DNA of 64,000 nt from Carnobacterium inhibens subsp. inhibens DSM 13024 (GTDB lineage: Bacteria; Bacillota; Bacilli; Lactobacillales; Carnobacteriaceae), in assembly GCF_000746825.1 (NCBI RefSeq), contig NZ_JQIV01000006.1:310001-374000 (forward strand), written 5' to 3'. Shown here in pieces: positions 14,994 to 43,230 of the stretch. A program made the position numbers and the translations under genes. Numbering within the stretch: position 1 is the stretch's first letter; the number at the start of each line of letters is the position of its first letter. The notes under the pieces are model-generated. The model was not told the DNA's origin. It did not search any database and worked only from the letters and a program-made list of their open reading frames with translations.

Positions 14994-15008
14994 CAAGAGG
15001 TGAGAATA

Positions 15009-15293
15009 ATGCCAAAACGTAAAATTCCTATGCGGAAATGTGTGGTTTCTAATGAGATGAAACCTAAAAAAGACATGATCCGAATTGTGATCAATAAAGA
15101 AAATCAAGTATCTATCGATCCAAGTGGTAAGTTACCTGGAAGAGGTGCTTATGTCTCTATCGAACCTGAAATTGTCCAATCTTCATGGGATAAACATGTC
15201 TTGGATAAAGTATTGGGCACATCATTAGATGATCATTTTTATCAAGAGCTTTTAAATTATGTTACGCATCAAAAAGCTAGGATGAGTTTATGA
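15009..15293 (+). CDS. rnpM: RNase P modulator RnpM (YlxR family)
   Basis: A small basic RNA-binding protein of the YlxR family, recently described in Bacillus subtilis as a modulator of RNase P. The 94-aa product starts MPKRKIPMRKCVVS, and the conserved loop GRGAYVS lies near residue 47. I chose the ATG at 15009 because AGAGGTGAG lies just upstream; the in-frame GTG at 15000 overlaps that site. It sits between nusA and ylxQ, as in all Firmicutes, and overlaps ylxQ by four bases. Confidence 0.93.
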   Translation: MPKRKIPMRKCVVSNEMKPKKDMIRIVINKENQVSIDPSGKLPGRGAYVSIEPEIVQSSWDKHVLDKVLGTSLDDHFYQELLNYVTHQKARMSL

Positions 15294-15595
15294 TAGAGGA
15301 ACAAAAGGTGTTAAATCTCTTAGGTATGGCAACCAGAGCAGGTAAGCTTACAACTGGAGAAGATCTAAGTTTAAAAGAAATCAGAAATCAGACCGCGAAA
15401 GTTGTCATTGTTGCTACTGATGCAAGTGAAAATACTAAGAAAAAAATCTCGGATAAGTGTATTTATTATCAGATTCCTTTTATAATTCACTTTACGAGAA
15501 GTGAATTAAGCCAAGCAATAGGAAAAGAACGAACCATTTGCACCGTCACGAATAATGGCTTTGGAAAAAAATTCCGAGAATTATTATCGATTTAA
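15290..15595 (+). CDS. ylxQ: L7Ae-family RNA-binding protein YlxQ
   Basis: A 101-aa L7Ae/L30e-family protein, a kink-turn RNA binder associated with ribosomes. Visible family traits are LLGMATRAGKLTTGED near the N-terminus and VVIVATDASENTKKKI near residue 35. Its ATG overlaps the rnpM stop (ATGA), implying translational coupling. The stop precedes the infB ribosome-binding site by a few bases. The exact cellular target is not known. Confidence 0.92.
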   Translation: MIEEQKVLNLLGMATRAGKLTTGEDLSLKEIRNQTAKVVIVATDASENTKKKISDKCIYYQIPFIIHFTRSELSQAIGKERTICTVTNNGFGKKFRELLSI

Positions 15596-31751: not shown

Positions 31752-32579
31752 TTAATCAATATTGGAAAACGTAATTTTTGCTAATTTTGTAATTTTATTT
31801 TTTTTAATAAAATAAATCCAACTAGGAGTAACACCAGAAACTTGGCGTTTTATAAAAACTATATTTTGAATTTCTCTAAAATCATCTTCATTTTTTGCTA
31901 AATTTAGTCGAAGATTTATTTCTTTATTTAATTTATTTACTTGCAGCGTTTTCAGGATCGTTGTGATAATCTTTTTGGATAAACTAGACATTACTAAAAA
32001 AACTGTTTTAAAATACTCAGTTAGAGTTGTATCTCGGAAGTATACAAATGTTAATAGTATTGAGATTATTAAAATACTTAGTAATATAGTATTTATACTA
32101 GCATCATAGTATACATTTTCACCTATAGCTTTTTTTAAAGTTGTTTGTTGATTTTCCTTATCATCGACGAACTCGTACCAATCTTTTACTCCTCTAGGTT
32201 TATCATTACCTGTATGATTCATCTGTGATTTAAACATTTTTTTATTCTTTGATTTAAGTATTTGAACTGGTTTAATAGTATTTTGAGAGATTTCTTTTTT
32301 CCAACCAAAAACATATTCGTCAAATACTTGTTTAAATTCCGCTGCTTTCGAAGTATATTGAGAAATGTAACTATCTAAAATTAATGTTGTTAAGAACCAT
32401 AAAATTAGTGAATAATCCATCCATATACTATTTGTCCATATCATTTTAAAGATAATAGTAATTAGAATACCTAGCCAATAAAAATTATCTAACAAATCAG
32501 CTTTATCATAATAATATCGAGCAGACGTTTGACAAGCTAAAGCTATATCAGTATTTTGTCTAGAATATATTGTATTCAT
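31752..32579 (-). CDS. S-4TM-type membrane effector of a CBASS system
   Basis: A 275-aa protein with four predicted membrane segments in two pairs (about 34-48, 56-72, 160-180, 188-207). A cytosolic middle region of about 85 residues lies between the pairs, and a basic C-terminal part follows. This architecture, the position beside a CD-NTase and the N-terminal QNTDIALACQTSARYYYDKA match the S-4TM effector family, which is predicted to permeabilise the membrane when it senses a cyclic oligonucleotide. ATG overlaps the E2 stop (ATGA), with AGGAGA upstream. The assignment is by pattern and context; no catalytic residues are expected. Confidence 0.78.
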   Translation of the reverse strand: MNTIYSRQNTDIALACQTSARYYYDKADLLDNFYWLGILITIIFKMIWTNSIWMDYSLILWFLTTLILDSYISQYTSKAAEFKQVFDEYVFGWKKEISQNTIKPVQILKSKNKKMFKSQMNHTGNDKPRGVKDWYEFVDDKENQQTTLKKAIGENVYYDASINTILLSILIISILLTFVYFRDTTLTEYFKTVFLVMSSLSKKIITTILKTLQVNKLNKEINLRLNLAKNEDDFREIQNIVFIKRQVSGVTPSWIYFIKKNKITKLAKITFSNID

Positions 32580-33235
32580 AAGTTTCTCCTATCTTTTAAA
32601 ATTTCTAAATCACTCATCGCCTGATTGTATAATAGACGTGATTTAGAAATTTTATGCAGTTCATAATAATGACATTTTTTCATTTTTTTACTGGAACCAC
32701 ATGGGCAGGGGAGATTTCTATTTTTATTTTTAACCGGAAGAGCAAATAATAGTTTTAAAACAATCCCTCTGTTTTCTGATTTAAATAGATATTGATAGCC
32801 TTCCAAAATACCTTTATTCCCATGGCTGCGCTCTACCACAGGCATTGTATGATACTTTTGATAATATGAATAAACAGTGAGGTACTCTACAATTAATTCA
32901 AAGTATTTATTGATAGTATAGTTTGGTAGTAATCTATACCTTAACTCCATCTCCGTACCTAAACAGAAGGAACCAGCTTTATCCGGATTAATATGATGGT
33001 ATGAATGAATTTTTCTTTCACCATACTCATAGCAAGTCGGTAATGATTTTGGATAAGAATAAGGGAGTTCAATCAAAATATTATAATCTAGAAATGTTTT
33101 AACTCCATTTATTTGACTACTACAAGAAATACACATAACAATTTTGTAAAAGTTTTTTTCTTCTATAATTTCTTTTATTGTCAGCCCAGATAAACTATTA
33201 ATACTTTGGATAATCAAGCTTTTAGATAGAATCAT
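32576..33235 (-). CDS. E2-like conjugation protein with C-terminal SEC-C zinc motif (CBASS)
   Basis: The 219-aa product has a UBC/E2-like core. PYSYPKSLP is followed by the active-site segment HINPDKAGSFCLGT, placing the likely catalytic Cys at residue 91. The C-terminus carries a SEC-C motif, CPCGSSKKMKKCH (about 177-189), a zinc-binding module. In type II CBASS, E1-E2 (Cap2) or E2-only proteins conjugate the CD-NTase C-terminus; no E1 or JAB protease is present here. I chose the ATG at 33235, with GGAG upstream and an ATGA overlap with the CD-NTase stop. A TTG four codons earlier is possible. Confidence 0.8.
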   Translation of the reverse strand: MILSKSLIIQSINSLSGLTIKEIIEEKNFYKIVMCISCSSQINGVKTFLDYNILIELPYSYPKSLPTCYEYGERKIHSYHHINPDKAGSFCLGTEMELRYRLLPNYTINKYFELIVEYLTVYSYYQKYHTMPVVERSHGNKGILEGYQYLFKSENRGIVLKLLFALPVKNKNRNLPCPCGSSKKMKKCHYYELHKISKSRLLYNQAMSDLEILKDRRNL

Positions 33236-34350
33236 TTTACTCTCCAAGGGCTTGCTTTAGCAGAATTAACTTCAAAATCTGCTTCTTTAATTGAAGAAAA
33301 ATCTAGATTCAAAGAGTCATAAAGCATTTCTGATTTTTGAATATCTTCAATATTTGAAGAAGTTTGACTTTCAACTAAGTTTTTTAAGTCGGAAACCCAG
33401 TTGAAAAAGTCTTTAGCTACTTGTTTTTCTTCATTCCAAGAGCTTAAAATATTATCTAAACCATTGGCTGGATTTTTAAGAATCCATTGACCGTTGCTTA
33501 AAGCTATAATCTCTGAAATTATAAAACCTTCATTTAAACTTTTCTGAATAGATTTTCCTCTAGAGAAACTTTCTAGTTGTTGAAGCTCAGATACTACTAA
33601 GTTTAATAAAGTAAACTCGTCTTGAGCATAGAATAATTTATTAGCTAATTTAGCAACAATTGTAGTAATAACTATTGAAGATGGTTTTGACTGAGCAGTT
33701 GCTCTTGAGAAATATACATCACGTAATCTTTTAAGAATCTTAATTACATTTCTCATTAAATTAGTTGCTGCATCTTCTGGCAATTCTTCAATAGTGGAGT
33801 CAAAAATCCCTTTACGAAATTCTTCATATTTTTTCTCGTAAGCTTGTGTTTGGTTTTCAAACCAAGTTTTATACCCAAGAGGGTTATTTGAAATCCATTT
33901 ATTATAACTTGGAGCTACGTTAGGAATAGCTATTGAAGTCTCAACTAATTCAATACATTCAGTTTCTTGTCTTATTTTTTCTAATGTTTCAAAAGATTCA
34001 GCAACGGAAGGAATAATATCGATCGTAAATTCAATATCGTCAATTTTAGCATATTCAACTGTAAAACATTTTTCCCACCGTGTATAATTATGATAACCTG
34101 CAGAGTCTATGGCTTCTTCAAAAATATCCATTAATTTTGAAGGTGTGATACTTTTATCTAAATTTTGAACTTCGCAAATAACATCTACATCATATGACCT
34201 ATCTTTTCCATCTTTAAAAGGTCTAACAGCAGTCTTAGTTGCAAATGAACCTTGTGAGTAAAAATTTATATCTAAACCAGATGTTCTAATTATTGTTTTA
34301 CAAATATTAGTATATAATTCCTTTGCACGTTCTCTTTGTGTTTTTGTCAA
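33232..34350 (-). CDS. CD-NTase (cGAS-like cyclic oligonucleotide synthase, SMODS family)
   Basis: A nucleotidyltransferase that on phage infection would make a cyclic nucleotide signal for the S-4TM effector. The catalytic site is intact: GSFATKTAV (GS at 34-35), DVD (Asp 54 and 56) and the third Asp in FTIDIIPS (about 111). The C-terminal helical domain ends in SPWRVK, the expected conjugation target. The open frame starts only at a TTG without a ribosome-binding site. Family-like residues (NEVLAKID) are encoded upstream in frame but lack a start codon. One extra base in the A7 tract at 34385-34391 would join them to the ATG at 34400 (see findings). It may therefore be frameshifted. Confidence 0.83.
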   Translation of the reverse strand: MTKTQRERAKELYTNICKTIIRTSGLDINFYSQGSFATKTAVRPFKDGKDRSYDVDVICEVQNLDKSITPSKLMDIFEEAIDSAGYHNYTRWEKCFTVEYAKIDDIEFTIDIIPSVAESFETLEKIRQETECIELVETSIAIPNVAPSYNKWISNNPLGYKTWFENQTQAYEKKYEEFRKGIFDSTIEELPEDAATNLMRNVIKILKRLRDVYFSRATAQSKPSSIVITTIVAKLANKLFYAQDEFTLLNLVVSELQQLESFSRGKSIQKSLNEGFIISEIIALSNGQWILKNPANGLDNILSSWNEEKQVAKDFFNWVSDLKNLVESQTSSNIEDIQKSEMLYDSLNLDFSSIKEADFEVNSAKASPWRVK

Positions 34351-35002: not shown

Positions 35003-35485
35003 ATGGAAAACAATCCGAAGAGTGGAAGGATTGACACTGTCTCAAAAGTAATTGATGCTTCACCACAAACACTTTATCAAGCATTTATGGACCCGAATTA
35101 TTTAGTTAAATGGTTGCCACCTGAGAGTATGAGAGGAGAAATAAGCCTGTTTGAACCAGTAGTAGGTGGGAGATTTCAATTAACACTCACTTATGAGGAT
35201 GAACATGCCACTCAAGGGAAAACAACTAAAAATTCAGATGTTTTAGAAGGTACCTTTGTTGAATTGATACCCAATCAGAAAATCGTTGAGGCTGGTGTAT
35301 TTGAGTCAGATGATCCTGCCTTTGCAGGGAATATGGTGATGACTTGGTACTTTGAAGAAGTAGAACAAGGGGCGAAGGTAACGATTGTCGCTGAAAATGT
35401 CCCTAAAGGCATCAAGAAGGACGATCACATTGATGGGTTGAATTCCACACTAGAAAACCTGGAATGTTTTGCAAAGAAAAGTTAG
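35003..35485 (+). CDS. SRPBCC (AHSA1/START-like) domain protein
   Basis: A 160-aa protein of the activator-of-Hsp90-homologue 1-like SRPBCC family, a helix-grip fold with a hydrophobic ligand cavity. Family traits are VSKVIDASPQTLYQAFMDPN at the N-terminus, WLPPE at about residue 38, VVGGRFQLTL, and the C-terminal helix GLNSTLENLECFAKK. GAAGGAGCG precedes the ATG. It stands alone between the CBASS region and the repeat-flanked segment. Ligand and role are unknown; many relatives are general stress proteins. Confidence 0.82.
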   Translation: MENNPKSGRIDTVSKVIDASPQTLYQAFMDPNYLVKWLPPESMRGEISLFEPVVGGRFQLTLTYEDEHATQGKTTKNSDVLEGTFVELIPNQKIVEAGVFESDDPAFAGNMVMTWYFEEVEQGAKVTIVAENVPKGIKKDDHIDGLNSTLENLECFAKKS

Positions 35486-35837
35486 ATAACACTGTACTTT
35501 ATGAATAGCTCACTGATTTCCTTGATGTGTGTATCTTATATAATGCATTGAATGTGTTTCAGGAGGAACTTGGGTTATCGATAGAAGGAATAGTAGTCAA
35601 GAATTTGAGCATAGGCAATGCTTTTTTTGATTTGCGATCAGAAGTAAAATTTAGATAAAGTTTCCCTTTTCTTTAACTAGTGTATTTGGCTGTAGTTCAA
35701 ATTTTTCACAGTTTCCAGTGGCCAAACGTTTTAATAGGATAAATCACGTTACTCATTTTATTCGGATTCAGAGAAAGCTTATATAGAGAAGTAAACTAGA
35801 AGTTTAATTTAGTAGGAATAGTTTCTGATTACTTTAC
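35486..35837. other. Gene-free stretch with a decayed fragment
   Basis: No intact gene. A 49-codon open stretch (35509-35658) without a start signal reads like a C-terminus (LGLSIEGIVVKNLSIGNAFF). The rest is AT-rich spacer up to the terminator at 35838. Confidence 0.4.
35509..35658 (+). pseudogene. Probable 3' remnant of an unidentified gene
   Basis: The frame from a TAG at 35506 to a TAA at 35658 encodes 49 plausible residues, but no ATG or ribosome-binding site is present. I do not recognise the family. Confidence 0.25.
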
Positions 35838-35894
35838 AGGCAGAATCAACTCTAAAGCGGATAGCTTTAGGATTGATTCTGCCTGCTTTTTTTC
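35838..35894 (+). terminator. Long hairpin terminator
   Basis: CAGGCAGAATCAA pairs with TTGATTCTGCCTG, with an inner TAAAGC/GCTTTA helix, followed by CTTTTTTT. Confidence 0.88.
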
Positions 35895-35900
35895 TAACCT

Positions 35901-36265
35901 ATAAAATAATAATTGAAATGGAACGGTTAATTCGTTTAGTCGGATAAGTTTAGTGTTCCTTCATATAGATAGTAAATTTCTAAAGTATCATTATTTCCTG
36001 GTTCCCAATAATATTTTTTCTCAGCTACGCGGGATAGACCCTTGTGTTCATAGTATTGATAATCAGAAGAATTGTCGGTAAACAAATAGAAATTTTCTGC
36101 TTGATGTTCTTTAAGGTAATCATAAAAATGATTATACAACAGTCCCCCAATACCCAATCCTTTAAATTCTTCCTTCACTATAAGCAAATTTAAACCGGCG
36201 TCATAATTTTTTCGGCTTTTTTCTAAAAGAAATTCATTGATTTCCAGCGTCTGAATGTATTTCAA
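35901..36265. repeat. Direct repeat, left copy (about 365 bp)
   Basis: Nearly identical to 38485-38849 with a constant offset of 2584 bp and only scattered substitutions. It contains the 3' half of the GNAT gene. Homology ends sharply at 36265, where the IS1380-remnant DNA begins. Confidence 0.92.
35936..36265 (-). pseudogene. Truncated duplicate of the GNAT acetyltransferase gene
   Basis: The 109 codons match residues 104-212 of the intact GNAT protein at 38520-39158 with about four changes (such as KEHQ for KQHQ). The N-terminal 103 codons are missing because the duplication breaks at 36265. The apparent TTG start is an internal leucine codon of the full gene. It is almost surely non-functional. 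Confidence 0.88.
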
Positions 36266-36310
36266 GGTGTTGATGAGCTAAATTTAGTTAAAAATAAAAT
36301 CTGATTTAGG

Positions 36311-36343
36311 CAGCGTGAGGCAACGGACTCACGCTGTTTTTTT
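36311..36343 (+). terminator. Intrinsic terminator in the insertion remnant
   Basis: CAGCGTGAG-GCAACGGA-CTCACGCTG is a perfect 9-bp stem followed by seven T. Confidence 0.85.
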
Positions 36344-36568
36344 AGTCTCTTGGCATACAGTGTGGTTAATTTCTTGCGTACCATATGTTTTGAACCAAAA
36401 TCAAAAGGACTCCAAGTGAATAAGATACGTCTTCGTCTGTTTAAAGTGGTTGGAAAGCTCGTCACTACGGCTAGACAAATCTACTTAAAACTATCAAGTT
36501 CCCATGTTTATAAGCGAGAGTTTGAAGCCGTATTCAGGAAAATCCAAAGGATTCGGCAGTACATTTAA
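36341..36568 (+). pseudogene. 3' remnant of an IS1380-family transposase
   Basis: About 75 codons encode the C-terminal end typical of IS1380-family DDE transposases: LAYSVVNFLRTICF, then IRLRLFKVVGKLVTTARQIY and LKLSSSHVYKREF. The catalytic domain and the left part of the element are absent. It abuts the breakpoint of the direct repeat at 36265, so this element probably took part in the rearrangement that duplicated the GNAT gene end. Confidence 0.8.
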
Positions 36569-36652
36569 AGAACCTGTTTTTTTAAAACCGTTTAAATGGC
36601 CTAGGAGAAGCACGTCCAAAATCCGTGGGATGAGACTAAAATAACTTGATAT

Positions 36653-36680
36653 TTAAAAGTATGAACTATTCAGGTATAAT
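36653..36680 (+). promoter_or_regulatory. Promoter of the FAD/NAD(P)-binding protein gene
   Basis: TTTAAA and a consensus TATAAT are separated by 16 bp, 36 bp before the start codon. Confidence 0.55.
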
Positions 36681-36716
36681 TAGATGGATTAGTTTTGTAG
36701 TTACAGGAGGATAACA

Positions 36717-38216
36717 ATGGATATTGCTATTGTAGGAGCTGGAATTTCTGGTTCCAATGTATTAAAAAGTTTAATAACTCATCCGAATTTCCAAGCCGAT
36801 GACTTAATCGATGTCTATGAACCCCGTCAGTCTCTAGGCTCAGGATTACCTTATGAACCAACTGACGACGAATCAATTATGTTAAACACCTCTTCGGATG
36901 TGTTGAGTGTGGATGAAAATAATGAATTAGATTTTACGGAATGGTTAGAACATCATTTTAAAGAACCAACGAATTTTGAGCAACTCGTTTCACGGCCACA
37001 TTATGGAAAATATTTAGTGGAGCGCTTTTCCCCATTCTATACGCACGAACAAGTACGCCACGTTCAAAATACTGTTGTTGACGTTGAAGTGCTAGATGCT
37101 GCAACAAAAGAACCAGCAGATGACACACAAGACGGCAATTTTGTGTACCGTATTAAAACGGAAGACGGCTGGCAAGATGGTGTATATGATGCGGTATTCT
37201 TTTCAGTCGGACATCCTGAATACAATGATTTCTATGATTTAAAAGGTACTGAAAATTATATTCATAACCCTTACCCAATGAAAGAAAAACTAGCAAATTT
37301 TGACAATAATCAAAAGATTTCGGTTGTTGGAAGTGGTGCTACAGGTGTTGACTTGATGCGTTTCTTCACGTCTAATTATGAATTAGAGCAACCCCTAACA
37401 TTTTATGATTTAAAAGAACCGTTTTACTGTGTAGCTATTCCTTATGAGAAGGATGATTTTACATATCACTTAACAAAAGATTGGGTGGAAGAACAAAAAG
37501 AAGTACACGGTGGGTTTATTCCGCTCCAAGTCATACTCGATACGATTAAAGATGATTTAAAACAAGAGAATGTTGAGCCAATGGCAGTTTATAATCGTTA
37601 TAAATCTGGAACGTTAGATGTTTTCCGCAAAGCATTTGATATGAAAGACCAGGAATTGGCAGCTGTTCAGAAATATGCGGCTAATTCTGTTCCAAATCTT
37701 CCGCATTTGTATAATGCATTGTCAGGTGAAGACCAACAAGAGTATATGAAAAACTATTATCAGATTATGTTGTTTTTCAAAGCGAAAGTACCTTACTACA
37801 GCTATCAGTGGTTATTTGAATTAATTGATGCGGGTAAAGTAGAAACTGTTGCTGGTTTGAAAGAAGTAACTGTTTTAGAAAATGGACGCTTCCAATTTGT
37901 GACGGAGGATAGCGAAGCCGAAGCTGATATTGTCGTTAACGCGACAGGTTTTATAAACAACATTGAAACATTGACTAAACACTCTGAGTTAATTGAAAAT
38001 CTGTTCCATCGCCGCTTAATTATGCCGCATGTGGATGGGAAATTTATCTTAGTCGATTGGCCACAGTGTCGTGTGATTAACCAACAATATGGACGTATGG
38101 ATCATTTGTTCTTCCTCGGTCTATTAATTGGTGGAACACAACATGAGAATAATGATGCCGGGCAAACGATTCAGCAAGCCCAATATACAGCAAAAGCGTT
38201 TATGGACGAACGATAA
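36717..38216 (+). CDS. FAD/NAD(P)-binding oxidoreductase-like protein
   Basis: A 499-aa flavoprotein-like product with an N-terminal Rossmann FAD motif MDIAIVGAGISGSNVL. A second dinucleotide site, ISVVGSGATGVDLM, lies near residue 200. The segment LGSGLPYEPTDDESIMLNTSSDVL is typical of the FAD-NAD(P)-binding family NAD_binding_9 (written here only as a pattern: GLPYxP near 42 and MLNT near 55). CAGGAGG precedes the ATG, and a terminator follows. Its substrate is unknown. It lies alone between the two 365-bp direct repeats and could be lost by recombination. Confidence 0.82.
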   Translation: MDIAIVGAGISGSNVLKSLITHPNFQADDLIDVYEPRQSLGSGLPYEPTDDESIMLNTSSDVLSVDENNELDFTEWLEHHFKEPTNFEQLVSRPHYGKYLVERFSPFYTHEQVRHVQNTVVDVEVLDAATKEPADDTQDGNFVYRIKTEDGWQDGVYDAVFFSVGHPEYNDFYDLKGTENYIHNPYPMKEKLANFDNNQKISVVGSGATGVDLMRFFTSNYELEQPLTFYDLKEPFYCVAIPYEKDDFTYHLTKDWVEEQKEVHGGFIPLQVILDTIKDDLKQENVEPMAVYNRYKSGTLDVFRKAFDMKDQELAAVQKYAANSVPNLPHLYNALSGEDQQEYMKNYYQIMLFFKAKVPYYSYQWLFELIDAGKVETVAGLKEVTVLENGRFQFVTEDSEAEADIVVNATGFINNIETLTKHSELIENLFHRRLIMPHVDGKFILVDWPQCRVINQQYGRMDHLFFLGLLIGGTQHENNDAGQTIQQAQYTAKAFMDER

Positions 38217-38230
38217 TTTAACAATGAAAT

Positions 38231-38264
38231 AAGCTCAGAACCCTTTGTGGTTCTGGGCTTTTTT
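38231..38264 (+). terminator. Intrinsic terminator after the FAD/NAD(P)-binding gene
   Basis: AAGCTCAGAACC-CTTTGT-GGTTCTG.GCTT is followed by TTTT. Confidence 0.9.
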
Positions 38265-38309
38265 GTTCATATGCGTATAAATTTCGGAATGGCCGGATTA
38301 TTGTTATAT

Positions 38310-38532
38310 TAAGGGTACGCAAATGGAACAAGCTATATGAATGCAAGAGGAATTTATATGGAAATCGAAGGTTACGAAAAATTAACGCTATGAGGTAAAA
38401 AAATATTCGATCGAACACATGTGGAGAATAAGAAAATTGCAGATGACGAATCAGCTCAACTGCTTTTATGTCATGCATATAGTCATAAAATAATTTTTGA
38501 ACTGGAACGGTTAATTCGTTTAGTCGGATAAG
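38310..38532 (+). pseudogene. Decayed gene fragment with an in-frame TGA
   Basis: One plus-strand frame reads NARGIYMEIEGYEKLTL, stops at a TGA (38390-38392), and continues GKKIFDRTHVENKKIADDE to a TAA at 38530, where it overlaps the end of the GNAT repeat. No complete gene can be built. The family is not recognised. The same tail (RLIRLVG) recurs at the left repeat because it lies inside the duplicated DNA. Confidence 0.3.
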
Positions 38533-38849
38533 TTTAGTGTTCCTTCATATAGATAGTAAATTTCTAAGGTATCATTATTTCCTGGTTCCCAATAATATTT
38601 TTTCTCAGCTACGCGGGATAGACCCTTGTGTTCATAGTAATGGTAATTAGAAGAGTTGTCGGTAAACAAATAGAAATTCTCTGCTTGATGTTGTTTAAGG
38701 TAATCATAAAAATGATTATACAACAGTCCACCAATACCCAATCCTTTAAATTCTTCTTTCACGATAAGCAAATTTAAACCGGCGTCATAATTTTTTCGGC
38801 TTTTTTCTAAAAGGAATTCATTGATTTCCAGAGTTTGAATGTATTTCAA
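38485..38849. repeat. Direct repeat, right copy (about 365 bp)
   Basis: This is the parental copy of the left repeat (35901-36265) in the same orientation. Here the GNAT reading frame continues intact beyond the end of the repeat. Confidence 0.92.
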
Positions 38850-39158
38850 AAAGATCGAATCAGGTTCAGTAATGCGTAATATTTTTTCCAATGAAGAAAT
38901 ATTCTTCCTAGTACTGATTTTCTGAATATTGGTTTGGTCTACTAATCCGGTTGCTACAATTCCTACTATGTCGTCACCTATTTGAGCAACAAAAACATCG
39001 TCTGATTCTAGTAATAGATCACTTAGAAAAAAATCGGCCATTGGGGCTACTAAATTATTTGGGACCCATGACCGATAATCCCAGGTGTTAATCACTAAAT
39101 CCAAAATAGAATCATAATCTTCAGGTATCATCTTTCTTAATATAGTTTCTTTTTTCAT
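38520..39158 (-). CDS. GNAT family N-acetyltransferase
   Basis: A 212-aa acetyl-CoA-dependent acetyltransferase. The central motif A is LLIVKEEFKGLGIGGLLYNH (about 128-147), with the GxGxGG-like pyrophosphate loop. The C-terminal YYEHKGLSRVAEKKYYW forms the usual last strands, and FLYTDNSS-like residues precede it. AGGAGA lies ten bases before the ATG. The substrate is unknown. Its 3' half is duplicated at 35936-36265. It lies upstream of, and in the same orientation as, the decayed insertion region. Confidence 0.87.
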   Translation of the reverse strand: MKKETILRKMIPEDYDSILDLVINTWDYRSWVPNNLVAPMADFFLSDLLLESDDVFVAQIGDDIVGIVATGLVDQTNIQKISTRKNISSLEKILRITEPDSIFLKYIQTLEINEFLLEKSRKNYDAGLNLLIVKEEFKGLGIGGLLYNHFYDYLKQHQAENFYLFTDNSSNYHYYEHKGLSRVAEKKYYWEPGNNDTLEIYYLYEGTLNLSD

Positions 39159-39255
39159 TCCTATGTTCTCCTTGTTTGAAAGTGTTCATCTCCGTGCAAC
39201 TAACTACTGGAACCATTGATATACAACGACTTTTTCTAACTACTAAATGATTCTA

Positions 39256-40290
39256 TCAGAACATCCAATTAATTAATACAACAGCCAATACGATTTGGAA
39301 GAAACCGATCAGTAAACCGTACAACATAGTTCGAGGTCCTTCTTTTAAGATATCAGAGAACTTGACCTGTAATCCAATCGCAGCCAAAGCAGTAATCTCA
39401 AATTGGTTGCTGATGACTTCCGAACTGTAGATCATTAGGGAAGGCAAAGGCAGAAAGCTTCTAAGCATGAACAAAATGAAGAATCCGATAATAAACCAAG
39501 GAACAGTCATTAGACTAGAATTCTTGTTCACTTCAGAAGTTGAGCGAGTAGCCGTTTTAGAAAATAACGATTCTTCCTCTTTTGTATTCATTTTGCTGAA
39601 ACATAAGGCTACACCAACGATGAGGAGAACTCTCATGAGTTTAAAGACAATGGATAAATTGGTTACGTCGACGCTGACCAGCTTAGCTGAAGCAACGACT
39701 TGTCCTATAGATTGGACAGTTCCTCCAATCAGAGCAGATGTTTGAACGACTTCATTTTGATACAGAACAGAAGAGAGGATAGGCAATAAGACCATCAATA
39801 TCGTTCCAATGACATTGACTATAGTAATAGACATAGCTTTATCTTTCTTATCAGCTTCAATCACCGGAGAAACGGTCCCGATAGCAGAAGAGCCACATAC
39901 TGCGTTACCCGCACTCATCAATAAAGACATCTTTTTATTGAACTTCATAGTTCGACCGATCCAATAAGCAAATAATATCGTCAAGATCATTTGGAGAATC
40001 ACAAAAATAAATCCTGTAGATCCAACTTGCTTGATGATCTGAAAATCTAAAATCATGCCGTTTAATACGATCGACCACTCTAGAAGTGCTTTTTCGGAGA
40101 ACTTAGTTCCACTTTTTAAATAAGGTTTGTTCAAAAAAGTATTCCCTAATAGGATACCTAAAAAAATAGCGATCAATGCTGCACCTATGTTCGGCATAAA
40201 GTGGGTCAAATACTGACTGATGAATGAAATTATGATGCTGATCATTAGACCAGGCAAGATGGAACGATTATTTTTCATTTGAGTATACAT
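39256..40290 (-). CDS. YeiH-type (UPF0324) membrane transporter
   Basis: A 344-aa integral membrane protein with about ten hydrophobic helices. Conserved features of the YeiH/UPF0324 family, annotated as putative sulfate exporters, include MSLLMSAGNAVCGSSAIGTV (about 120-139) and GGTVQSIGQVVASA near 190. GGAGG precedes the ATG by seven bases. It is transcribed divergently from a LysR regulator, the same arrangement as yeiH-yeiE in enterobacteria, which suggests local control. The true substrate is not established. Confidence 0.87.
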   Translation of the reverse strand: MYTQMKNNRSILPGLMISIIISFISQYLTHFMPNIGAALIAIFLGILLGNTFLNKPYLKSGTKFSEKALLEWSIVLNGMILDFQIIKQVGSTGFIFVILQMILTILFAYWIGRTMKFNKKMSLLMSAGNAVCGSSAIGTVSPVIEADKKDKAMSITIVNVIGTILMVLLPILSSVLYQNEVVQTSALIGGTVQSIGQVVASAKLVSVDVTNLSIVFKLMRVLLIVGVALCFSKMNTKEEESLFSKTATRSTSEVNKNSSLMTVPWFIIGFFILFMLRSFLPLPSLMIYSSEVISNQFEITALAAIGLQVKFSDILKEGPRTMLYGLLIGFFQIVLAVVLINWMF

Positions 40291-40405
40291 ATTAAACCTC
40301 CTTCAATCCTTTGTTTATAGGATTATCATATAAGGTAATTTGTATAAAATAAAATAATCATTTATTATATCTTTATAAGATAATATTATGAAGGAGCTGT
40401 TTAAG
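40291..40405. promoter_or_regulatory. Divergent control region of the YeiH transporter and LysR gene
   Basis: A 15-bp dyad TATCTT-TAT-AAGATA (40368-40382) lies just before the LysR gene. AT-rich -10-like elements occur on both strands. The layout suits an autoregulated LysR regulator; the exact binding site is inferred. Confidence 0.4.
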
Positions 40406-41287
40406 ATGTTAGATTACCGATACCAAACGTTTCTTACGCTGACAGAAGAAATGAATTACACAGCAACAGCCAAAAGACTGCACATTACTCAACCCGCTGT
40501 CACACAACACATCCAGTATTTGCAGCAAGAATTAGGGGTCGAACTGATTCGCTATGAAAACAGACAACTGTCCTTAACAGCTAAAGGCAAGCAACTGAAA
40601 AAGGATCTTTATTGGCTGCAAAGAGAGATTACTAAAGTGCAAAAACAATTGGCCTCTACTGTAGAACACACTACTCTTACATTTGGAGCTTCTTTGACGA
40701 TTGGGGAATATATGATGCCGGACCTCATTGAGTCGTATTTAAATCAATATCCAACGCATGATATTTCGATGGTAACGGACAACACTCAACACTTGATCGA
40801 ACTATTGGAACATGGGAAAATCGATTTTGCACTTGTGGAAGGAGAATTCAATCAATCTTTATTTGAATTTCAAAAAATTGCTGAGGAACCGTTTATCGCT
40901 GTCTGTTCCGAAAAATGCTCTTTATGGAAACAGGATCAAAGCATTAATGACTTATTTTCTACGACGATTTTAGTGCGTGAAGAGGGATCTGGATCACGGC
41001 TTATTTTCGAAACAGCCATAAAGAACAAAGGAATCCATTTAGACAGCTTTTCGAAAGTCATGACGATTGGGAGTATTGGAGCAATAAAAAAACTGGTCGA
41101 AAAAAACTTAGGTATTACTTTTGTGTATCAGAAAGCTGTTGAAGAAGAACTAAATAATGGAATTTTAAAAAAGATTCCGTTAAGTAATTTCAGTGTAATT
41201 CATCCGTTTTATTTGATTTATTTGAAAATAACTCAGTTAAGAGGAGAAGCGAAGATAAAAAAAATATTGAGACTGATAGAATATTGA
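40406..41287 (+). CDS. LysR family transcriptional regulator
   Basis: A 293-aa regulator with an N-terminal winged helix-turn-helix (YTATAKRLHITQPAVTQHIQ, about 17-36) and a periplasmic-binding-like effector domain. Sequence resembles the CysL/YeiE branch: SLTIGEYMMPDL near 95 and VREEGSGSRLIFE near 195, the latter typical of that branch. I chose the ATG at 40406, with AAGGAG nine bases upstream; the ATG at 40388 overlaps that site. The divergent YeiH transporter is the probable target. Confidence 0.88.
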   Translation: MLDYRYQTFLTLTEEMNYTATAKRLHITQPAVTQHIQYLQQELGVELIRYENRQLSLTAKGKQLKKDLYWLQREITKVQKQLASTVEHTTLTFGASLTIGEYMMPDLIESYLNQYPTHDISMVTDNTQHLIELLEHGKIDFALVEGEFNQSLFEFQKIAEEPFIAVCSEKCSLWKQDQSINDLFSTTILVREEGSGSRLIFETAIKNKGIHLDSFSKVMTIGSIGAIKKLVEKNLGITFVYQKAVEEELNNGILKKIPLSNFSVIHPFYLIYLKITQLRGEAKIKKILRLIEY

Positions 41288-42610: not shown

Positions 42611-42650
42611 AGAGAAAGAGATTCTTGTGATTACAAGGATCTCTTTTCTA
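42611..42650 (+). terminator. Terminator of the SPFH unit
   Basis: GAAAGAGAT.CTTGT-GATT-ACAAG.ATCTCTTTTC forms a 14-bp stem with one mismatch. Confidence 0.85.
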
Positions 42651-43230
42651 TTACTTATTTTAAATCTCCTTCTAAAAAAATATTGATATTAATTGGACAA
42701 GTTATTTGCCTAACAACTTACATTTTATTTTGTTACTTCTTGGTTTATTCTGTATGATTTAATGAAGATTGTAAAACCAGATATTGTGTTGTTAGGCAAA
42801 GGATATAGGAAATAATAATGGATTTAGAAAATAGTGTACTACGTTTTAAGAATGAATCCACTTTTTTTAAAAGCTCGCAGACATTAAAAATAATTCCATA
42901 AATGTGTAACCATGGCTCCTTTTATCTCATTGAAAGTATTTAGTGTTACATTAACGAGGTGATGTGAAAAAATGAATTAAAAGGATAAAAAGTTAGAGTT
43001 GATCAAAAAGAAGCAAGAAACTGACGGTCTCAATTTGCTGAAGCTATAAGAATGTAATAATGTACTGATGTAGTATGAGGTGAACGAAGAGAGTTGCTCA
43101 AAACATATTATTCTGACCTAATCTATGTAGAATAATATATTCTATGACTCATTTGTAATGTGTTTATACAATAGTGTAAATAACTAATGTGAAGAGGACA
43201 ATATACTTTTCTAGAAGAGTTATTATATGT
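42651..43230. other. Gene-free, probably decayed stretch
   Basis: About 580 AT-rich bases with many stops in all frames. Short protein-like snippets (such as IVKPDIVLLGKGYRK near 42765-42810) suggest decayed genes, but nothing identifiable remains. Confidence 0.45.

Follow-up and report, generated by a model that had tools for sequence, protein, structure and literature searches.

A truncated GNAT gene end next to a FAD/NAD(P)-binding protein gene as the probable scar of two joined alleles in Carnobacterium

In homology-facilitated illegitimate recombination (HFIR), incoming DNA recombines homologously at one of its ends, while its other end is joined illegitimately (PMC3240628). A related outcome has been described for the orphan immunity genes of the Vibrio cholerae type VI secretion system (T6SS), where a module is added, possibly by one-sided homology, and the earlier part stays (PMC5361080). 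Here we analyze a locus of Carnobacterium inhibens subsp. inhibens DSM 13024 that lies within a 64,000-nucleotide stretch of contig NZ_JQIV01000006.1 (hereafter, the window) and that resembles HFIR products in having one junction in shared GNAT acetyltransferase sequence and another that joins unrelated sequences, GNAT and an ISL3-family insertion sequence (IS). HFIR is known from experiments, whereas here it is deduced from one old junction present in two species. The V. cholerae scars differ in that whole immunity genes are kept in arrays, while what is left in the Carnobacterium locus is one truncated GNAT end that shows no sign of being used. Fragments of ISL3- and IS1380-family elements are both present at the left edge of the inserted block; compared with intact elements of these families, neither is complete here, and there is no clean insertion end at the GNAT junction. 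Judged by titles and the beginnings of abstracts, the matches listed for ISL3 and Carnobacterium do not treat this locus, and those for defence islands and lepA contain nothing on this site.

We consider it probable that the interval from lepA to the GNAT gene is variable and that two of its alleles were joined, through homology in the GNAT end on one side and by an illegitimate junction with a truncated IS end on the other.

The repeat pair and the block between its copies

The relevant part of the window contains the following features.

35003..35485, plus strand: AHSA1-domain gene, the left neighbour in G000 (the window's own genome), G002 and G003 (PF08327, E 2.1e-18)
35837..35885, no strand: terminator-like inverted repeat between the AHSA1 gene and the left repeat copy (two 22-nt arms, 91% complementary, then T-rich)
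35901..36265, minus strand: left repeat copy, cut off at 36265 and made up of the 3' part of a GNAT acetyltransferase gene with 35 bp of downstream sequence
36266..36343, plus strand: ISL3-family terminal fragment, outermost 15 bp missing (79% to the G001 copies, 91% to the G005 copy)
36344..36633, plus strand: IS1380-family element, 3' end only (ORF for the transposase C terminus, 36350-36568)
36634..36716, plus strand: upstream region of the FAD gene, within a stretch common to five FAD-bearing loci
36717..38216, plus strand: FAD/NAD(P)-binding protein gene, complete, 499 aa (PF13454, E 1e-22; PF07992, E 2.9e-06)
38217..38484, no strand: spacer after the FAD gene (95.5-97.0% in G003, G004 and G005; not found in the G002 stretch)
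38485..38849, minus strand: right repeat copy, made up of the 3' part of the complete GNAT gene with 35 bp of downstream sequence (from the repeat alignment)
38520..39158, minus strand: complete GNAT acetyltransferase gene, 212 aa (PF00583, E 3.9e-07)
39256..40290, minus strand: Cons_hypoth698 membrane protein gene, presumably YeiH, in the right-hand shared flank (PF03601, E 7.5e-72; homologues in G002-G005 and G013)
40388..41287, plus strand: LysR-like regulator gene in the right-hand shared flank (identified by eye from the translated sequence; G002-G005 and G013 have homologues)

The direct repeats at 35901-36265 and 38485-38849, 365 bp each, align without gaps and differ at 16 of the 365 positions (95.6% identity within the genome). 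Similarity of 96% over 365 bp is far beyond chance, and the alignment of both copies bears out the original observation of near-identical, same-orientation copies offset by 2584 bp from start to start. When a 451-bp query (35850-36300) was compared with the 2.75-Mb genome, these two places only were found. The open frame of the left copy (35936-36265, minus strand) retains the last 109 GNAT codons and the stop codon and is cut at 36265; in a family search it matches Acetyltransf_1 (E 4.4e-05).

At the 36265/36266 junction GNAT codons are joined to a truncated ISL3 end, i.e., to unrelated sequence. The stretch 36266-36343 aligns to positions 16-93 of a 1500-bp IS present in seven copies in G001, the transposase of which matches NF033550 transpos_ISL3 (E 1.9e-91); the second end of the ISL3 element adjoining the left copy is lost. 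The left copy had been claimed to break at an IS1380-family remnant. This was wrong, since the ISL3-family end adjoins it and IS1380 sequence starts only at ~36344. The ORF at 36350-36568 matches positions 365-434 of the 435 in PF13701 (E 5.4e-17), and the IS1380 part is 83% identical over 282 columns to a copy elsewhere in the same genome that has a full-length transposase ORF. A composite transposon was considered and rejected: rather than two IS copies flanking the FAD gene, there are IS matches solely to its left. No multi-copy match to the spacer on its right (38217-38484) turned up in 39 genomes, nor any match in plasmid records; from the latter, the block was matched only through its IS1380 part (five Enterococcus plasmids, 75% over 8% of the query).

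As originally noted, a complete FAD/NAD(P)-binding protein gene lies between the repeats. Its product matches NAD_binding_9 and Pyr_redox_2 in a family search; a single-sequence search of solved structures returned no relative at E 0.001. At E 1e-100 the protein is present in 4 of 18 genomes of the family, and the genes in G003, G004 and G005 are 94-98% identical to that of the window. A further relative, with different neighbours, was found in a contig labelled as an uncultured Atopostipes metagenome-assembled genome (MAG), in a scan that returned two loci in all. The five FAD-bearing loci seen are thus those of the window, G003, G004, G005 and the Atopostipes MAG contig. The FAD gene of G005 is frameshifted (L028 10170-11669).

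Single and fused arrangements in related genomes

A 4.2-kb region was used to search 39 genomes, 13 of which, our own included, gave some match. The genus was sampled by six Carnobacterium genomes, one per species, among them C. jeotgali MS3 (G005, contig NZ_JQNF01000005.1), and the family by 18 genomes. Arrangements were compared after dropping BLAST rows of 60 columns or fewer, and segment identities refer to the best match per segment and genome within the stretches compared.

The fused arrangement of the window, with the left copy after the AHSA1 gene, is also present in a second species, G003. Two of the 18 family genomes, G000 and G003, contain the GNAT/ISL3 breakpoint pattern, and they are one base apart inside it. 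Repeats can confuse assembly, and an assembly artefact had been named as a possible refutation of the duplication. With the same duplication and left breakpoint in G003 and 16 positions at which the copies differ, such an artefact is very unlikely. The G003 GNAT gene itself (L065 14899-15546, minus strand) does not have the stop codon at which its counterparts in the window, G002 and G005 end, and its 215-aa product is three residues longer. Where the IS1380 scrap gives way to the region upstream of the FAD gene (~36634-36647), ~81 bp of G003 sequence have no counterpart in the window, and this gap falls between copies of a short direct repeat.

In a third species, G002, the AHSA1 gene is followed by one GNAT copy, and the sequence corresponding to the left copy is continuous with AHSA1. 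When one repeat unit is removed from the window, the result aligns to G002 as a single 3951-column block (92.7%, 8 gap openings), and the GNAT gene of this joined form is an intact 212-aa frame. Both the expectation that one intact GNAT gene would remain and that of presence/absence variation were therefore borne out, the latter between species, with G002 empty and G000 and G003 filled. If the two copies recombined homologously, the FAD gene could be lost while an intact GNAT gene was kept. It is nevertheless improbable that G002 is the product of such a deletion and that the repeats are a recurrent excision device for the FAD gene. The single-block alignment fits this idea, but the identical structure is expected if G002 never had the block, no intermediate was found among the genomes searched, and the low divergence of the FAD gene (see below) points to recent arrival. 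G002 more simply represents the state before the block arrived.

In the other single arrangement, that of G004 and G005, <100 bp separate lepA from an ISL3 end in which the 15 terminal bases are present; next come the IS1380 scrap, the FAD gene and GNAT, and neither genome has the left GNAT copy. In G004 a stretch matching window positions 38738-39319 is also absent (L027 ~10107), a deletion that takes the 5' part of the GNAT gene and the 3' end of the Cons_hypoth698 gene. In G001 the FAD gene was not found, and the GNAT gene had no match at the DNA level. We asked whether G004 and G005 are simple deletion products of the fused form and rejected this, since their ISL3 terminus is intact while its 15 bp are missing at the GNAT junction.

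These arrangements bear on the idea, implied by the earlier title, that an in-place duplication within one genome gave two copies of the GNAT end, between which the FAD/IS block arrived. The direct orientation and the 95.6% identity within one genome would be expected from such a duplication. Yet in G004 and G005 the FAD block adjoins GNAT without a left copy, the duplication was not seen apart from the block in any of the 39 genomes searched, and the truncated copy differs mostly synonymously in the window, though not in G003. In-place duplication is therefore unlikely.

The main rival to the joining of two alleles is an IS-mediated route, in which an ISL3 element inserted into the GNAT gene of one allele and then recombined with the ISL3 copy that precedes the FAD gene of the other or transposed aberrantly, the 15 bp being lost then or later. 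The ISL3 end that adjoins the left copy, the scraps of two IS families in the block and the seven near-identical ISL3 copies of G001 are all consistent with it; the latter are 99.7-100% identical in pairwise alignments of 1354-1516 bp, where all-against-all rows of 150 columns or fewer were dropped and 2 of the 7 copies were not aligned along the whole 1500 bp. A clean insertion would have kept the complete terminal inverted repeat at the insertion point, but neither G000 nor G003 has, at the GNAT junction, the outermost 15 bp that are present in G004, G005 and the seven G001 copies. In addition, the 78-bp ISL3 part has no second match in its own genome. We regard the IS-mediated route as possible but rather doubtful.

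Under the joining of two alleles, which we favour, the interval from lepA to the GNAT, Cons_hypoth698 and LysR genes would be a variable Carnobacterium site with at least two alleles. Allele (a) would consist of cargo, AHSA1 and GNAT, as in G002. Allele (b) would run from the ISL3 end through the IS1380 scrap and the FAD gene to GNAT, the order seen in C. jeotgali MS3 and G004; both of these single arrangements are observed. The two would have been joined in tandem in the lineage to which the window and G003 belong. On the left, allele (a) would have been interrupted inside its GNAT gene and linked to allele (b) at the latter's truncated ISL3 end, giving the breakpoint that G000 and G003 share; on the right, the FAD block would continue into GNAT, where the alleles are homologous. 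The GNAT end occurs in both single arrangements, so that one junction lies in shared sequence. We infer that incoming DNA was joined by homology on the GNAT side and illegitimately on the IS side, and we infer the order of events likewise. The left 365-bp copy would then be the leftover GNAT end of allele (a), a scar rather than a functional unit. A ComEC (Competence) model was matched in all 5 genomes examined, but 10 of 14 control genomes matched it as well, so DNA uptake is permitted and nothing more is shown.

Divergence of the copies and of the FAD block

In the coding part, 10 of the changes that separate the left and right copies of the window are synonymous and 3 are nonsynonymous. A truncated copy in free decay should show ~68-80% nonsynonymous changes, and P values for this expectation range from 1.2e-05 to 2.5e-03 at nonsynonymous fractions of 0.81 to 0.65; significance is overstated here, as the calculation assigns all 13 differences to the left copy. 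The copies were thus probably different alleles already when joined, and the 16 differences in the window are probably in large part older than the joining. The differences had been read as a sign that the duplication is not brand-new, a weak inference when 10 of the 13 coding differences are synonymous. In G003 the left and right copies differ by 8 synonymous and 7 nonsynonymous changes, and part of that divergence is probably later decay.

Synonymous divergence between left and right copies does not clearly exceed the interspecies value of the FAD gene (P 0.05 and 0.10), and the full GNAT copies of the genus are roughly equidistant, with 15-24 differences in 365. Near-equidistance means that neither the donor nor the right-hand crossover can be placed and, together with a left-right divergence not clearly higher than that of the FAD gene, that the joining cannot be dated. 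In a site table that excludes G004, which has 253 of the 365 bp of the repeat and a partly deleted GNAT gene, the base at 35984 is common to both left copies (window and G003) and absent from the five other full copies compared, favouring a single origin. Against the favoured account, a three-base pattern at 35910-35912 that G004, G005 and the right copy of G003 have in common is missing from the right copy of the window.

The window closely resembles G002 to the left of the block (AHSA1, 96.3%) as well as to its right (5' part of GNAT, 97.7%). Per 200 bp, its identity to the FAD-bearing genomes is 95-100% up to ~38434 and 91-96% for the next several hundred bases; these values were taken at a fixed offset with indels ignored, and G005 values from ~40018 and the last window of some rows were not used. 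Identity to G003 climbs again to 97-98% in parts of 39834-40833, and the drop at the GNAT end is therefore no clean block edge.

The FAD gene is far less diverged than lepA. In pairs of G000, G003 and G004, dS is 0.062-0.087 for the FAD gene and 0.465-0.694 for lepA; for the first 844 nt, with G005 included (six pairs), the values are 0.054-0.079 and 0.366-0.774, respectively. Fisher tests of this contrast, which use rounded counts and treat sites as independent, gave P values of 1e-18 (G000-G003), 4e-29 (G000-G004) and 2e-09 (G000-G005). Relative to lepA, our sole yardstick gene, the FAD block looks to have become common to several species recently, and the low divergence suggests that it probably spread horizontally. 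When G000 is paired with the other genomes, dS is 0.099-0.210 for GNAT, 0.167-0.328 for Cons_hypoth698 and 0.209-0.361 for LysR. Between G000 and G002 it is 0.072 for AHSA1 and 0.099 for GNAT, and these low values indicate that parts of the interval beyond the FAD block have recombined too.

The variable interval downstream of lepA

The repeat and the FAD block represent ordinary genome evolution, for which relatives that have the block and others that lack it provide good documentation. They provide a compact worked example: both single forms, the fused form and the form expected from deletion are all found in living relatives, and a partial gene duplication can therefore be read as an acquisition scar and not as an in-place duplication. 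The wider lepA interval is more interesting than the repeat itself, for it is a variable site with different defence genes in three species.

Between lepA and AHSA1 the window contains CBASS-like defence genes (31752-34350, minus strand) for a CD-NTase (SMODS), an E2-like protein with a SEC-C motif and an effector with four transmembrane segments. For the G002 and G003 stretches, defence-gene matches were listed up to E 1e-05. The G003 interval has the Thoeris genes ThsB, ThsA and ThsB (L065 2242-4857, minus strand), with a ThsA frame of 354 aa that starts at position 122 of a 478-position model and may be truncated. The interval also encodes a TmtA-like protein of 1682 aa that has a caspase-like match at its C terminus (L065 6006-11054, minus strand). 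That of G002 encodes a 769-aa PDC-S06 candidate defence protein (L064 6719-9028, plus strand) and a 965-aa helicase-like protein (L064 9981-12878, plus strand). G004 and G005 have the FAD block where the window, G002 and G003 have defence genes. The gene content of these last three suggests a putative defence hotspot downstream of lepA. More tentatively, the lepA-GNAT interval may be a cargo-exchange site of Carnobacterium, at which whole alleles, different phage-defence systems included, would be swapped via conserved flanks and sometimes stacked by one-sided homology; gene-end scars would then record the order of stacking and could later serve as deletion repeats.

The AHSA1 gene was found in three of the six genus genomes (G000, G002 and G003). 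In G013, which belongs to another genus, the order of AHSA1 and GNAT is kept with ~10.8 kb of other genes in between (L029 4569-15394), including, as judged by eye, look-alikes of chromate transporters, a PTS permease and a 6-phospho-beta-glucosidase. The G013 stretch beside AHSA1 (14994-15368) matches window positions 42641-43017 at 80%.
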